Below the pieces are notes generated by a model. It searched no databases. It was not told the origin of the DNA and saw nothing but the letters and a program-made list of their open reading frames with translations. Shown here in pieces: positions 2 through 12,885 of a DNA stretch of 31,905 nucleotides. How positions within the stretch are numbered: the first letter of the stretch is position 1; the number at the start of each line of letters is the position of its first letter. The stretch is taken from positions 1-31,905 of IMG/VR virus record IMGVR_UViG_3300031951_000776; one strand, 5' to 3'. Position numbers and translations under genes: made by a program. The stretch comes from a virus.

Positions 2-1072
2 AACTACGCTGATTACCTATCATCTAAACTGAACGAATCTATTAAATATACTGAGCATGTTGCTGAGACTACTAACAACGGTATCGAGTATGCTAGCTAT
101 ATTGGTGAGAAACTAAACGAGTCAGTAAACTATCAAGATTACTTGGCTGAGAAGTTAAACGAGAACATCAACTACTCTGAGTACTTGAAAGAGAACTTAA
201 ACTCTTCTATCAAGACTCTTAACAATTCTGTAAAATACCAAAACTATCTAGCAGAAGAGTTAGACAGAGGGTTACAGTACACTGAATACGTTGCTGAAGG
301 TGCAAACAGAGGAATTGAATTTGCAGAATACCTTGCAGAAAACGTAAACGCTAACCGTGACTACGCTCAATACATCGCTGAAAAACTAGATCAAAACATT
401 GGTTACTCTGAATACATCGCTGAATCTCTTAACGGAGGAACAGTAGTAGGAGGAAGAAACGTTCTTGGTGGAGTTGCTGGATTAAACGAGTCTACTTCAA
501 TCGACAACTTAATCTCTAAAGTAGATGCAGTTATCACAGAAGTTAACAGTTCTTCAGCTAAAGCAGTTCTTGAAAGCAAATATCCTTTCTTAAAGGTTAT
601 GAGCGAAAACAACAAGAAGTCTTTCCACGGTCTAGATACAGACAGCAAACAAGCAATCGTAGAAGCTCTTAACGGATCTCTTTGGTTCAACGAGAACGAC
701 GTATTAGGAATTATGGAAGCAGTTCTTAACCACAAGAACGAAAACGTTCCTAGCTACGTTAGATTCATGCCAGTAGAGTACAAGACTCTTTGGACTGAAA
801 TGAACGAAAGCGAGAAGAATAGAATTCACGCTAAAGCTCAACTTTACACAGTAAACACTCCTTACCAAGCCAAAGCGTTTTGGGACGAAATGGACATGAG
901 AGGAGTACAATACAGAATCGAAGAAAGCAAACAACAAAATAAATTGCAACAACTCAACGAAAGCCAAAGTACAGAAGGCCTAATACCTGTAAATCAGGTT
1001 GTTGAGATGCAGAGAGGTTACTCTCAAGGTTACCTACAAGGTCTACAGAGATCTGCAGATCTTAGAAAGTAA
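2..1072 (+). CDS. Scaffold-like prohead core protein with 14-residue repeats (5' end outside window)
   Basis: The reading frame is open from the left edge, so the true start lies upstream; the TTG at 143 is not a convincing start. The visible N-terminal half is about ten copies of a 14-residue unit of the form YxxYLAEKLNExIx, with one 7-residue half unit (TLNNSVK) in the array. A 14-residue, two-heptad period suggests a long helical or coiled-coil rod. The C-terminal part is non-repetitive, helical and Glu/Lys-rich (around SKYPFLKVMSENNKKSF and VRFMPVEYKTLW). It sits 27 bp upstream of the gp23 homologue, where T4 has the core scaffold gene 22, so a prohead core role is inferred from position and architecture rather than recognised sequence identity. 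Two matches to the T4 prohead protease consensus (I/L)xE|(A/G), IVE|A and IME|A, occur in the C-terminal part. A long tail fibre or other structural rod is a less likely alternative. Confidence 0.6.
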   Translation, partial: NYADYLSSKLNESIKYTEHVAETTNNGIEYASYIGEKLNESVNYQDYLAEKLNENINYSEYLKENLNSSIKTLNNSVKYQNYLAEELDRGLQYTEYVAEGANRGIEFAEYLAENVNANRDYAQYIAEKLDQNIGYSEYIAESLNGGTVVGGRNVLGGVAGLNESTSIDNLISKVDAVITEVNSSSAKAVLESKYPFLKVMSENNKKSFHGLDTDSKQAIVEALNGSLWFNENDVLGIMEAVLNHKNENVPSYVRFMPVEYKTLWTEMNESEKNRIHAKAQLYTVNTPYQAKAFWDEMDMRGVQYRIEESKQQNKLQQLNESQSTEGLIPVNQVVEMQRGYSQGYLQGLQRSADLRK

Positions 1073-1099: not shown

Positions 1100-2770
1100 A
1101 TGGCACGTACAAAAATTTTCAGACGTTCAAGCGATAATCGCTTGGCAACTACCTGGAACCCAATCTTAGAAGGATATGGTGCAGACGTTGCAAAGACTCC
1201 ATGGTTAGCTGAGTATGCTCACAACCACGCGATCTTTGATAACGCTACTCCATTGTTCGAACAGACTGCTCCTGGTGTATTCTTACAAACTCCTGGATCT
1301 CTTGGTGGATTCATGGGTAACCCACAAGCTCCAACACCTTCTCAAACTCCATTCACAGGCGGTGTTAAAAATGCTTACTCTGACTCAGGTTCAGGTGACA
1401 AGTTTCCATCTTTGTTACCAGTAGCGATTCAGGTTGCTGCTAAGACTATCGGTTTCGATCTAGTTCCTGTAATCCCTATGGATTCTCCAGTTGGATTCCT
1501 TCCTTACTTGGATTATCTATATGCAGGTGGTCGTACAACTGGTTCTGACTTTGATCCTTATTTAGTAAAACTAGAAGGAATTAAAGCAGACGTTCTTACT
1601 GCTACTCCTGAAGCTGGTGATGCTGTTAGAACTGCAGGTGGTGGTGGTGACATTACTGCTGAATTCGTTGGATTCTCTCGCGTAGACGGTACAATGATCA
1701 TCAAGATCCTTGCTGACGCTTCAACTGGAGGTACTACTACAATCGACGGTGAATTTTCAGGAAACGATATCGACATCAATTTTGGTGCTGGTTTCATTAA
1801 CCAAGTAGGAACAAACGTTGATGCTGTTTCTTTAGTATCTGCGTTAGAAAACCACATTTCTGGTTTCACTTCAGTATCTGATGCTGAGTATGATCAACCT
1901 CAAGGTAGATTCTACGGTAACTACTTACCTACAACTGGAAACACTCCTAACGGAATGTCTCGTGAGGCTGGTGAGAACTCTAAGTTCCGTCAAATGGGTC
2001 TAAGAATGTTCACTAAGTTTGTTGAGGCTAAGACTGACCAGGTTTCTATCTCAGCAACAGTTGAGCAAATCCAAGACTTGAACAGAGTATGGAACTACGA
2101 CGTTATCTCTATGTTAGAGAACGTTGCAGTAAACGACCTTGCTCAATCTATCAACAAGCAACTTGTTGACCGAGTATTCCAAATGGCTGATGTTCACAAC
2201 GGTGAGATCGACCTAGTTGAAGGTACTGGAATCACAACTCTTGACCTTTCTACAGGTACAGGAGGTTTCGAAAACGTTTCTACATTGCAACGTAGATTAG
2301 TTACTAAAGTTCTTGAACTTGCTAACTTGATCTACCATAGAGGACGTTTCGGAGCTGGTACATTCATGGTAACTAACGGACGCCTTGCTTCTGCATTGGC
2401 AGACGTTGCTGGTTACTCAATTGCACAAGTTCCAACTGATATGACTGGTGTTGCTGGAAACCTTTACCCTGCTGGTAAAGTTTACGGTGTACAGGTTTAT
2501 GTTGACCCTAACTTATCTTGGGGAGATACAAGACTTGCAATCGGTCGTAAAGGTGCTGACGAAGAGCCTGGAGTTAAATTCATGCCGTACATCATGGCTG
2601 AATCTCTTCAGACTATCGCAGAGGGTACATTCTCTCCAAAAATCGGTATGAAATCTCGTTACGCGATTACTGAAGCTGGATGGCACCCTGAAACACAGTA
2701 TGTTAACATGGATATCCAAGGTGATATCGCAGTTCTTACTGGTGGTGTTGCACCTGCAAACTTTAGCTAG
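1100..2770 (+). CDS. 23: Major capsid protein, T4 gp23-like
   Basis: This 556-aa protein (T4 gp23 is 521 aa) builds the hexameric capsid lattice with an HK97-type fold. Recognisable gp23 blocks are the PMDSPVGFLPYLDYLYAGG stretch near residues 126-144, the QMGLRMFTKFVEAKTDQVS segment near 298-316, the RRGAG-like HRGRFGAGTFMVTNGRLAS segment, and the C-terminal VYVDPNLSW ... GMKSRYAI region. Residues about 150-285 are a Gly/Thr/Asp-rich stretch that looks like an inserted surface domain. The N-terminus contains NPILEGYG; I22-L23-E24|G25 fits the T4 gp21 protease consensus, which would remove 24 residues (T4 removes 65). It follows the scaffold-like gene by 27 bp with no promoter box between, so the two are probably co-transcribed, and it is followed by a strong terminator. 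The leader is A-rich without an SD. Confidence 0.95.
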   Translation: MARTKIFRRSSDNRLATTWNPILEGYGADVAKTPWLAEYAHNHAIFDNATPLFEQTAPGVFLQTPGSLGGFMGNPQAPTPSQTPFTGGVKNAYSDSGSGDKFPSLLPVAIQVAAKTIGFDLVPVIPMDSPVGFLPYLDYLYAGGRTTGSDFDPYLVKLEGIKADVLTATPEAGDAVRTAGGGGDITAEFVGFSRVDGTMIIKILADASTGGTTTIDGEFSGNDIDINFGAGFINQVGTNVDAVSLVSALENHISGFTSVSDAEYDQPQGRFYGNYLPTTGNTPNGMSREAGENSKFRQMGLRMFTKFVEAKTDQVSISATVEQIQDLNRVWNYDVISMLENVAVNDLAQSINKQLVDRVFQMADVHNGEIDLVEGTGITTLDLSTGTGGFENVSTLQRRLVTKVLELANLIYHRGRFGAGTFMVTNGRLASALADVAGYSIAQVPTDMTGVAGNLYPAGKVYGVQVYVDPNLSWGDTRLAIGRKGADEEPGVKFMPYIMAESLQTIAEGTFSPKIGMKSRYAITEAGWHPETQYVNMDIQGDIAVLTGGVAPANFS

Positions 2771-11351: not shown

Positions 11352-11615
11352 ATGAAAAGAGCAATCGAAAGATTTGAACAATACGCTCTATTTGAAAAGA
11401 AGGGCGATCTCAAAAAGCTAGTCGGAAAAGACGAAGACGAAGAGTTGACGGTGAACGACGCCAAGCGATTGGGTGTTAAGATTGCTAACATGGATGGTGA
11501 AGACAAGAAAAAATACGTCGGAATCATTAACTTCTTAGGAGCTTCGTGTAACATCTATAACGAGATCTGGAAGAATTATAGAAGAACCCGAGACAGAAAA
11601 GAACGAAATGCATAA
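11352..11615 (+). CDS. Small charged protein of unknown function (87 aa)
   Basis: The protein is highly charged. It starts MKRAIERFEQYALFEKKGDL, continues with the acidic GKDEDEELTVNDAKRLG, and ends in a basic helix (NYRRTRDRKERNA). The N-terminal RFEQYALFE has the same look as LFEDFSRIYE at 29464, a pattern seen in T4-type head-targeting peptides, though LFE|K does not fit the cleavage rule well. It follows the 75-aa gene by 11 bp, and its last 8 bp overlap the next gene, so all three are one late operon. Structural or assembly function is inferred from operon context only. Confidence 0.7.
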   Translation: MKRAIERFEQYALFEKKGDLKKLVGKDEDEELTVNDAKRLGVKIANMDGEDKKKYVGIINFLGASCNIYNEIWKNYRRTRDRKERNA

Positions 11616-12885
11616 GCTATTTGAAAATTCTTATGACGACGCCTCAGAAATAAAAGACGGCGGCTTTGTTTTTCAAGCGATCTTAAGTTATGACATGAGA
11701 TGGTCAATAGTTGACGGCGAAGCTAAATATGATCAACGTTGGGTAGAAGGAAAGCTACATCAAGTAGACGTTTATCCAGACCTAAAATTCATGGAGGGTT
11801 ATGCTACCCTAAATTACGTAGTACTTAGTGAAGTCAATCTATTCAAGAGAAAGTTAGATCTTGCTACTGAATACATTAAGATGGCTTTTTCTAAGGGCTA
11901 CGCTGATGAGATAAACGGAATAGCGTCTACTCAAAAAGACCCTATCGGAGGCGGAATTCCTGACATAGTTCCACCAGAAGAAGATGAACTAGCTAACATC
12001 GATTTTACTGAAGCTTTAAGAAAGGCTGAAGAAGCAAAGAACAAGAACAAGCCGAGCGAAGATTCAACAGTGGCTGGTGAAATTGGCCAAGGACAAAAAC
12101 AGATAGCTTTACCTGGAGCCAAGAATGAAGCTGACTCTTCAAACCTACCGGCGACTACTGGAGGTTCTCAACAACTAACGACCACTGGAGGTTCTCAACA
12201 ACTAATGACGACTGATGGAGAATCCCAAAACACTGAAGAAACTGCAGAAGAGGAAGAAAAACCGCCTGTAGTACAGGAGAATCCTAATCCAGAGCCAGTT
12301 AACGTTCCACCTACTTCAGAAGAAAGAAAGGCGATAAACGACAAATACTTTAAAGGAACTACTATACAGATACGATTCGAAGCAAAAAGAGTCGTTCTTA
12401 GGGAGATATCAACAAGTAGTGTAGACTCAGGAAGACCTACGTGTACCTTAAAGCTTTCTACTGGAATGGTAGATACTTTAGACGGACAGCCCATAAATTC
12501 TTGGAATGGATTTAAGATCTATGCAAGCGGTGCTCCGTTTGATGGAATGGCGATAGACAACGAAACTGTTCCACCTATCTCGAAGGCAATGATGTATGAT
12601 CCTATCGATAACGCAAATGACTTGATATTTAGAACATTATTACCTTCTCTTTATCTTGAATTCTCAGGAGACTCTGCAAAGATCGATACTTACAATAACA
12701 GATCAGCGCAAGTAGGATTTAAAACAGAAATTGATTTTGACGAAATATTCAAGGAAAAAGGATCGACTCCTGTAATTGAACCAGAAGAAGGAGAAGAGGA
12801 AAGCGGTGAAGCTGAATCAGACGAAGAGACTTCTACTGAAATTGCAAAAGCAATTCCTCCTAGCGAAAAAACAAAAGGTGGATAA
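11608..12885 (+). CDS. Large late protein with low-complexity middle, probable structural protein
   Basis: This 425-aa product has three parts. An ordered N-terminal region (about 1-110) contains VFQAILSYDMRWSIVDGEAK and KLHQVDVYPDLKFMEGYATL. A Gln/Thr/Gly-rich and acidic linker (about 130-245) includes two nearly exact 9-residue repeats (TTGGSQQLT, TTGGSQQLM). A folded C-terminal half (about 246-390) contains TIQIRFEAKRVVLREISTS and ends in a strongly acidic tail. I do not recognise the family. It is followed 44 bp later by the tail tube gene with its own promoter box, and lies in a late + strand operon, so a tail or head component is likely. The start overlaps the 87-aa gene by 8 bp. Confidence 0.75.
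   Translation: MHKLFENSYDDASEIKDGGFVFQAILSYDMRWSIVDGEAKYDQRWVEGKLHQVDVYPDLKFMEGYATLNYVVLSEVNLFKRKLDLATEYIKMAFSKGYADEINGIASTQKDPIGGGIPDIVPPEEDELANIDFTEALRKAEEAKNKNKPSEDSTVAGEIGQGQKQIALPGAKNEADSSNLPATTGGSQQLTTTGGSQQLMTTDGESQNTEETAEEEEKPPVVQENPNPEPVNVPPTSEERKAINDKYFKGTTIQIRFEAKRVVLREISTSSVDSGRPTCTLKLSTGMVDTLDGQPINSWNGFKIYASGAPFDGMAIDNETVPPISKAMMYDPIDNANDLIFRTLLPSLYLEFSGDSAKIDTYNNRSAQVGFKTEIDFDEIFKEKGSTPVIEPEEGEEESGEAESDEETSTEIAKAIPPSEKTKGG
12153..12233 (+). repeat. 27-bp tandem repeat (two near-perfect copies plus one decayed)
   Basis: Copies at 12153-12179 and 12180-12206 differ at only a few bases around a shared core CACTGGAGGTTCTCAACAAC-like sequence, and 12207-12233 is a degraded third copy. 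The unit is in frame, encoding TTGGSQQL(T/M), so copy number can change without breaking the gene. Confidence 0.85.

Follow-up and report, generated by a model that had tools for sequence, protein, structure and literature searches.

A probable head-scaffold rod of 14-residue repeats, fused to its prohead protease, before the capsid gene of a T4-like phage

Introduction

In phage lambda, the 3' part of the gene for the head protease C also encodes, in the same frame, the scaffold Nu3; this protease belongs to another family and no repeat rod is known there. In T4, the prohead protease gp21 and the scaffold gp22 are instead encoded by two separate genes, and a passage of PMC9026906 places gp21 cleavage after L/I-X-E. 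The way in which the core of T4-type phages fixes the size of the head is described as unsolved in a section of PMC3012670. In the herpesvirus pair UL26/UL26.5, protease and scaffold share one frame and one 3' end, and there is a shorter, scaffold-alone product (PMC4498786, in the part dealing with this pair). A single fused protein lies before the capsid gene in Tenacibaculum phage PTm1, annotated as 'prohead core scaffolding protein and protease'.

The locus described here lies at the beginning of a 31,905-nt stretch of viral DNA (the window; IMG/VR record IMGVR_UViG_3300031951_000776), in which a regular repeat array precedes a capsid gene. The array is probably the rod of a head scaffold that is fused to its own protease, with a nested scaffold-alone product. 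As such, the gene would be a counterpart, in the T4 lineage, of the protease-scaffold gene of herpesviruses, and clearance of the core would be explained by a cut site that recurs along the rod. It would also offer a natural series of scaffolds with protease and scaffold in one gene, stepping in rod length by whole 14-residue units across phages of ~250 to 735 kb, in which comparison of unit number with head diameter would be a direct test of how heads get their size. A literature search found no published description of the 14-residue repeat or of the internal start.

Results

The frame carrying the array is open from the first bases of the window, and the gene lies directly 5' of a gp23-type capsid gene (Table 1). 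Relatives were gathered from 28 loci through its C-terminal part, from 80 through the capsid protein, and from further searches. Relatives of the C-terminal part are up to 94% identical, and their intact ORFs start with a Peptidase_S77 domain. In L029, one of the two closest intact relatives, this domain scored 41.7 bits (1.1e-10) against a cut-off of 27; L344 and L079 were also above the cut-off, and L108 was below it (20.2 bits). Among PDB sequences, T4 gp21 is matched by the protease domain of intact relatives, and in a fold search with residues 27-172 T4 gp21 (5jbl; Z 17.8, rmsd 2.4 over 136 residues) was followed by herpesvirus proteases (Z 7-10). Residues H78 and S133/S134 are invariant in 78 sequences and align with T4 His85 and Ser140/141, which we take to be the catalytic pair of gp21.

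Table 1. Features of the array gene and its neighbour in the window.
Feature	Window position	Strand	Remarks
3' part of fused prohead-protease/scaffold gene (scaffold array and C-terminal domain)	2..1072	+	5' end outside window
Ten 14-residue units	5..445	+	Consensus YSEY[LI]AENLDKNIx; predicted single alpha-helix; profile scan and AlphaFold. Units by the 14-residue profile: aa 2-15, 16-29, 30-43, 44-57, 58-71, then, after the step, 79-92, 93-106, 107-120, 121-134, 135-148
7-residue step TLNNSVK	215..235 (aa 72-78)	+	Half unit, one heptad
Scaffold linker and C-terminal domain	446..1069	+	With gp21-type LNES motifs
Major capsid protein, gp23 type	1100..2770	+	Pfam Gp23, 3.2e-35

Protease and array lie in a single frame in 166 intact family ORFs (170 less four outgroup proteins), including that of L327, which has one recognisable unit. 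The order in the intact protein is protease domain, linker, internal Met, array and C-terminal domain, with 193-277 residues ahead of the internal Met in the 161 ORFs where it could be placed. No match to a Pfam scaffold family was obtained. An earlier note, made from the window alone, had proposed a head-core protein, with a tail or fibre protein as the alternative. The assignment to the head core holds because a gp23-type gene is next to the array gene and a gp21-type protease is on the same protein in intact relatives, while a tail or fibre protein is ruled out by this head-gene context. The fusion of protease and scaffold had not been foreseen.

Among other candidates, the PSCyt2 (DUF1549) Pfam match on the array was below the cut-off every time and was discarded as coiled-coil noise, and phrog_2782 and phrog_3378 gave short, weak matches to families with no assigned function.

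Elsewhere, the window contains a T4-type tail sheath gene and T4-type genes for topoisomerase subunits, a family B DNA polymerase, and RecA-like, DnaB-like and SbcC-like proteins. The phage appears to be T4-like and related to the largest known phages. Pfam S21 was found in 12 of 25 records, and from these matches a relationship with the bS21 clades of the literature is likely. An ORF of unknown family (11608-12885) also contains a tandem repeat with a 27-bp unit, present in 2.3 copies that are 91% alike (window 12152-12214).

The profile scan agrees with the earlier description of about ten 14-residue copies, in which a single 7-residue step is the sole break in an otherwise strict register; the half unit, however, which had been located at the end of the array, is placed by the profile inside it. 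Likewise, the '42-bp repeat' of that description stands as a register kept at the protein level, but not as a set of DNA copies, because these have diverged: on the array DNA, Tandem Repeats Finder reported merely 1.9 copies with a period of 30 bp. The unit profile was built from 187 distinct relatives and found no units in shuffles of 60 related proteins. The fixed positions are Y1 (88%), Y4 (92%), L/I/V5, A6 (81%), E7 (92%), and L9 and I13 (77%). The step looks like a duplicate of the preceding half unit, NLNSSIK, the DNA identity between the two being 12/21 nt in the window, 15/21 nt in L004 and 14/21 nt in L029; among the 170 intact ORFs, it is restricted to the closest relatives of the window. 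While the window array is cut off at its 5' end, a count of all copies is available from the two closest intact relatives, L004 and L029, which have 11 units and the same step.

The hydrophobic periodicity of the array peaks at 102 degrees, as in a heptad helix. For the window array with 43 relatives, AlphaFold gave one unbroken helix over residues 2-144, ending near the end of the array, with ten-residue blocks at pLDDT 75-92 (mostly 85-92); two of the five array-only models were good and three poor (33-40). When L029 was modelled at full length, the array came out helical at a pLDDT of ~50 and broken near the step, and the C-terminal domain mostly helical. One continuous helix of ~143 residues, roughly 21 nm long, is thus predicted for the array. 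Among the 170 intact ORFs, the array spans 154 aa in 55, 196 in 47, 182 in 34, 210 in 7, 140 in 6 and 168 in 4; the span is a multiple of 14 in at least 153, and the 17 with other spans include four outgroup proteins that have no unit. The one-heptad exception keeps phase, and therefore fits a coiled coil rather than separate 14-residue modules. Judged by its sequence, the array is a phase-locked heptad rod. Such helices would associate laterally into coiled coils, and the packed helices would make up the prohead core, around which the capsid shell would grow.

In T4, about 580 gp22 are found to 55 gp21, according to a passage of PMC9958956. This amounts to about ten scaffolds per protease, whereas a fusion alone would give one to one. 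Of the 166 proteins, 161 have an internal ATG after the linker of the protease, the other five (L060, L063, L065, L067 and L265) having no anchor and being left out of the placement; this supersedes an earlier version, in which 74 of 166 were placed and the internal ATG was the highest in A in 54 of the 74. The loci nearest to the window form a window-type set of 66, which takes in seven more distant phages (L107, L327, L343, L344, L346, L347 and L350). In all 54 distinct window-type leaders, A occupies positions -17 to -14 and -12 of the internal ATG, coinciding with the peak of the capsid-gene leaders. Scored with a profile of capsid starts, the internal ATG outranked every other in-frame ATG in 61 of the 66 window-type proteins and in 57 of the 95 from the huge clade, where the signal is weaker. 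Lysine codons just before the internal ATG are AAA 81 : AAG 6, compared with 2419 : 1055 elsewhere. The p-values for the leader and codon counts are overstated, because these counts come from related sequences. The upstream start of window-type genes can only be GTG or TTG in 45 of 66, may be ATG in 18 and was not placed in 3.

Bacteroidetes, the predicted hosts of related phages in a section of PMC9723584, normally have starts that lack a Shine-Dalgarno sequence and are tuned by upstream adenines (PMC6847099). The conserved internal ATG, with its A-rich, capsid-gene-like leader, probably serves to make a protease-free scaffold. The weak upstream start (TTG or GTG in most window-type relatives) would yield little of the full-length protease-scaffold and the internal ATG much scaffold alone, and with few fusion molecules the protease would be built into the core in small amount. 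The internal ATG might instead be unused, the fusion being the sole product and its protease diluted, or inactive until assembly. This is consistent with the weaker signal in the huge-type proteins and with a Met column that might be conserved for other reasons, but the position-matched leader, the codon bias and the weak upstream start of the window-type phages argue against it, and we regard it as quite unlikely.

The motif TATAAATA(ATAA) is presumably the late promoter motif of T4. Of the 66 window-type loci, 34 have this T4-late-type TATAAATA just 5' of the fused gene, with a TTG, GTG or ATG start close behind (e.g. L048, L055 and L070). An internal promoter of this type for the scaffold was rejected, since TATAAATA precedes the internal ATG in only one of the 66 window-type loci and in none of the 95 huge-type loci.

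The L/I-x-E motif occupies unit positions 5-7 in 1470 of 1910 units, although in merely 394 of 704 window-type units. Its density in window-type arrays is 4.85 per 100 aa (shuffled 1.93), the highest of all the regions compared; the capsid N-arm is also rich in it, while the mature capsid protein is at chance level (0.66 per 100 aa; shuffled 0.53). The protease domain is enriched too (2.90 versus 1.33 shuffled), and helical composition therefore explains part of the signal. The enrichment supports, but does not prove, cutting of the array by the protease. In the capsid N-arm, [LIV]xE is present in 45 of the 46 alignment rows that were inspected by eye, the remaining row (L071) being a misread start; the window capsid has LFE, with E54 encoded at 1259-1261, and this conserved motif is likely the maturation cut. 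Once the shell is closed, the fused protease would cut the capsid N-arm and most of the units after L/I-x-E, and the core would fall into short peptides, leaving room for DNA.

The array was found at the matching place in records of 634,780, 636,363, 642,428 and 735,411 bases; complete, circularised phage genomes of 634, 636, 642 and 735 kb are reported in a passage of PMC7162821. A 462-kb record has a degenerate array. Protease and scaffold are separate genes in T4, GAP32, Munch, PA5oct and a cyanophage. None of the scaffolds of these five phages, nor the fused proteins of PTm1, pT24 and MA9V-2, contains the 14-residue unit (0 of 8). Because the fusions of PTm1, pT24 and MA9V-2 lack units, the fusion is wider than the array, which is limited to one branch. 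No array ORF precedes the capsid gene in the Lak phages (L111 and L114), which have their protease match elsewhere, or in MaF61, where a gene of its own, annotated 'putative prohead scaffold', gives the match. Profile matches are absent from 12 of 350 loci (L111, L114, L116, L083, L088, L315, L324, L329, L335, L339, L341 and L342), some of which end before the gene.

Discussion

We consider it likely that the array is the rod of a T4-like head scaffold, that its gene gives two products, and that the protease cuts the core at L/I-x-E. The likeness to T4 gp21/gp22 includes the protease family and fold, the catalytic His and Ser, the order protease-scaffold-capsid and the L/I-x-E motif. It should be noted, however, that the two genes of T4 are fused in all 166 intact family ORFs, that the scaffold showed no homology to T4 gp22 at the sequence level, and that gp22 has no 14-residue unit by the profile, as the earlier note had supposed. 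With UL26/UL26.5 the locus shares the one-frame arrangement and the related protease fold; the difference is that the inner product is predicted here to arise from an internal ribosome start. PTm1, in turn, shares the single fused protein before the capsid gene, but its repeats (L110:4507-6300; FTKELSEGIEKWI...) are ~22 residues long by eye and gave 0 matches to the 14-residue unit. Since they look unrelated, repeats in such scaffolds may have more than one origin.

The earlier note had suggested that the copy number is tunable by recombination and sets head size, and had given an invariant repeat number as a point against this. The number is not invariant, as the spans vary from 140 to 210 aa in 153 of the 170 intact ORFs. 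Tuning by recombination is borne out in the huge-phage clade, whose near-identical units form exact DNA repeats of at least 60 nt (the limit of the count) and which shows at least 21 changes in unit number on a tree of 159 of the 161 proteins with a placed internal Met. It does not extend to the type of the window, where the array is frozen: most proteins span 154 aa, and in 46 proteins the same unit is more alike across phages (0.615 aa identity) than are the units of one protein (0.372). Judging from these identities, window-type units are position-specific and old.

As for head size, the idea is now testable. Under this idea, unit number would set core radius and head volume, and phages would resize their heads by gaining or losing units. 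Array lengths do step by whole units, at least 32 changes in unit number are seen on the tree of 159 proteins, and a section of PMC3012670 gives the core as what is believed to decide prohead shape above all, by a mechanism called unsolved. For comparison with genome size, helix slots of 11, 11, 11, 14, 12, 14 and 16 were counted for phages of 253, 271, 462, 635, 636, 642 and 735 kb, the first two taken as complete solely from recurring records of near-equal length; rho is 0.90 (p 0.006) over these seven phages, which are related and not independent, and 0.63 within the four largest genomes. However, the slot definition was picked after the data had been seen, the slots of the 735-kb phage include 28 non-unit residues, and contiguous units alone give a rho of 0.56 (p 0.19). 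In addition, the 635- and 636-kb genomes are two slots apart while those of 253 and 462 kb do not differ, a 230-kb record of uncertain completeness has 14 units, and T4 head length is also altered by point mutations of the capsid protein, as a passage of PMC9958956 reports. A ruler of this kind seems unlikely to us; the unit number is not invariant and not clearly a ruler.

The units might also be tandem tags for binding to the core and for cutting, like the capsid-targeting sequence of T4, so that cargo with a few units would join the core. T4 IPII and IPIII both begin with MKTYQEFIAEA, where YQEFIAE is in either protein the top-scoring match to the 9-residue profile (p 0.036 for IPII and 0.008 for IPIII against shuffles), which suggests a docking code shared between the units and this tag; small non-scaffold ORFs of huge phages, moreover, carry one to four units. 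Yet the likeness, which was spotted post hoc, covers only seven residues, IPII and IPIII have one tag in common and count once, the best match in IPI falls outside its own tag, and T4 gp22 is devoid of the unit. Furthermore, tag-like N-termini were absent from the 54 window ORFs and from the 854 ORFs scanned at 40 of the 66 window-type loci. The T4 tag is an N-terminal cargo tag of ~10 residues, while the array is internal to the scaffold, and the likeness is one of motif only. We give this reading little credence. A broader scheme, in which each unit would be at once a self-association module, a cut site and a docking code, the scaffold a tandem chain of units and the cargo one to four copies, and in which huge phages would step their core radius by recombination, heads following genomes up to 735 kb, is very unlikely in our view. 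The scaffold-rod reading given above is the one we prefer.

Units were also seen away from head genes, at L351:1261-1884 (+), L352:1436-1687 (-), L384:671-910 (+) and L407:747-974 (+), and in one such ORF they follow a collagen-like GVSGSSG tract. In MA9V-2 (L117:1762-2007), an 82-aa ORF 5' of the fused protease begins with MKTFTYFINEA, close to the capsid-targeting tag of T4.

The 735-kb phage (LR756501) encodes the peptide DPYGEE[ND]W 59 times (e.g. at 48367, 131122 and 716591), close to one terminus or the other of many proteins that have little else in common, as a repeated short linear motif; the reversed motif was found 0 times, and the motif itself 0 times in four related genomes. The same phage has a second gp21-like domain of 178 aa with no scaffold, near 11.3-11.9 kb (L353:815-1351, -). 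This domain has Tyr for the aligned His (GELGYP), FRPRAAG for SSRAAG and DPYGEENW at its end, and is likely a pseudo-protease.
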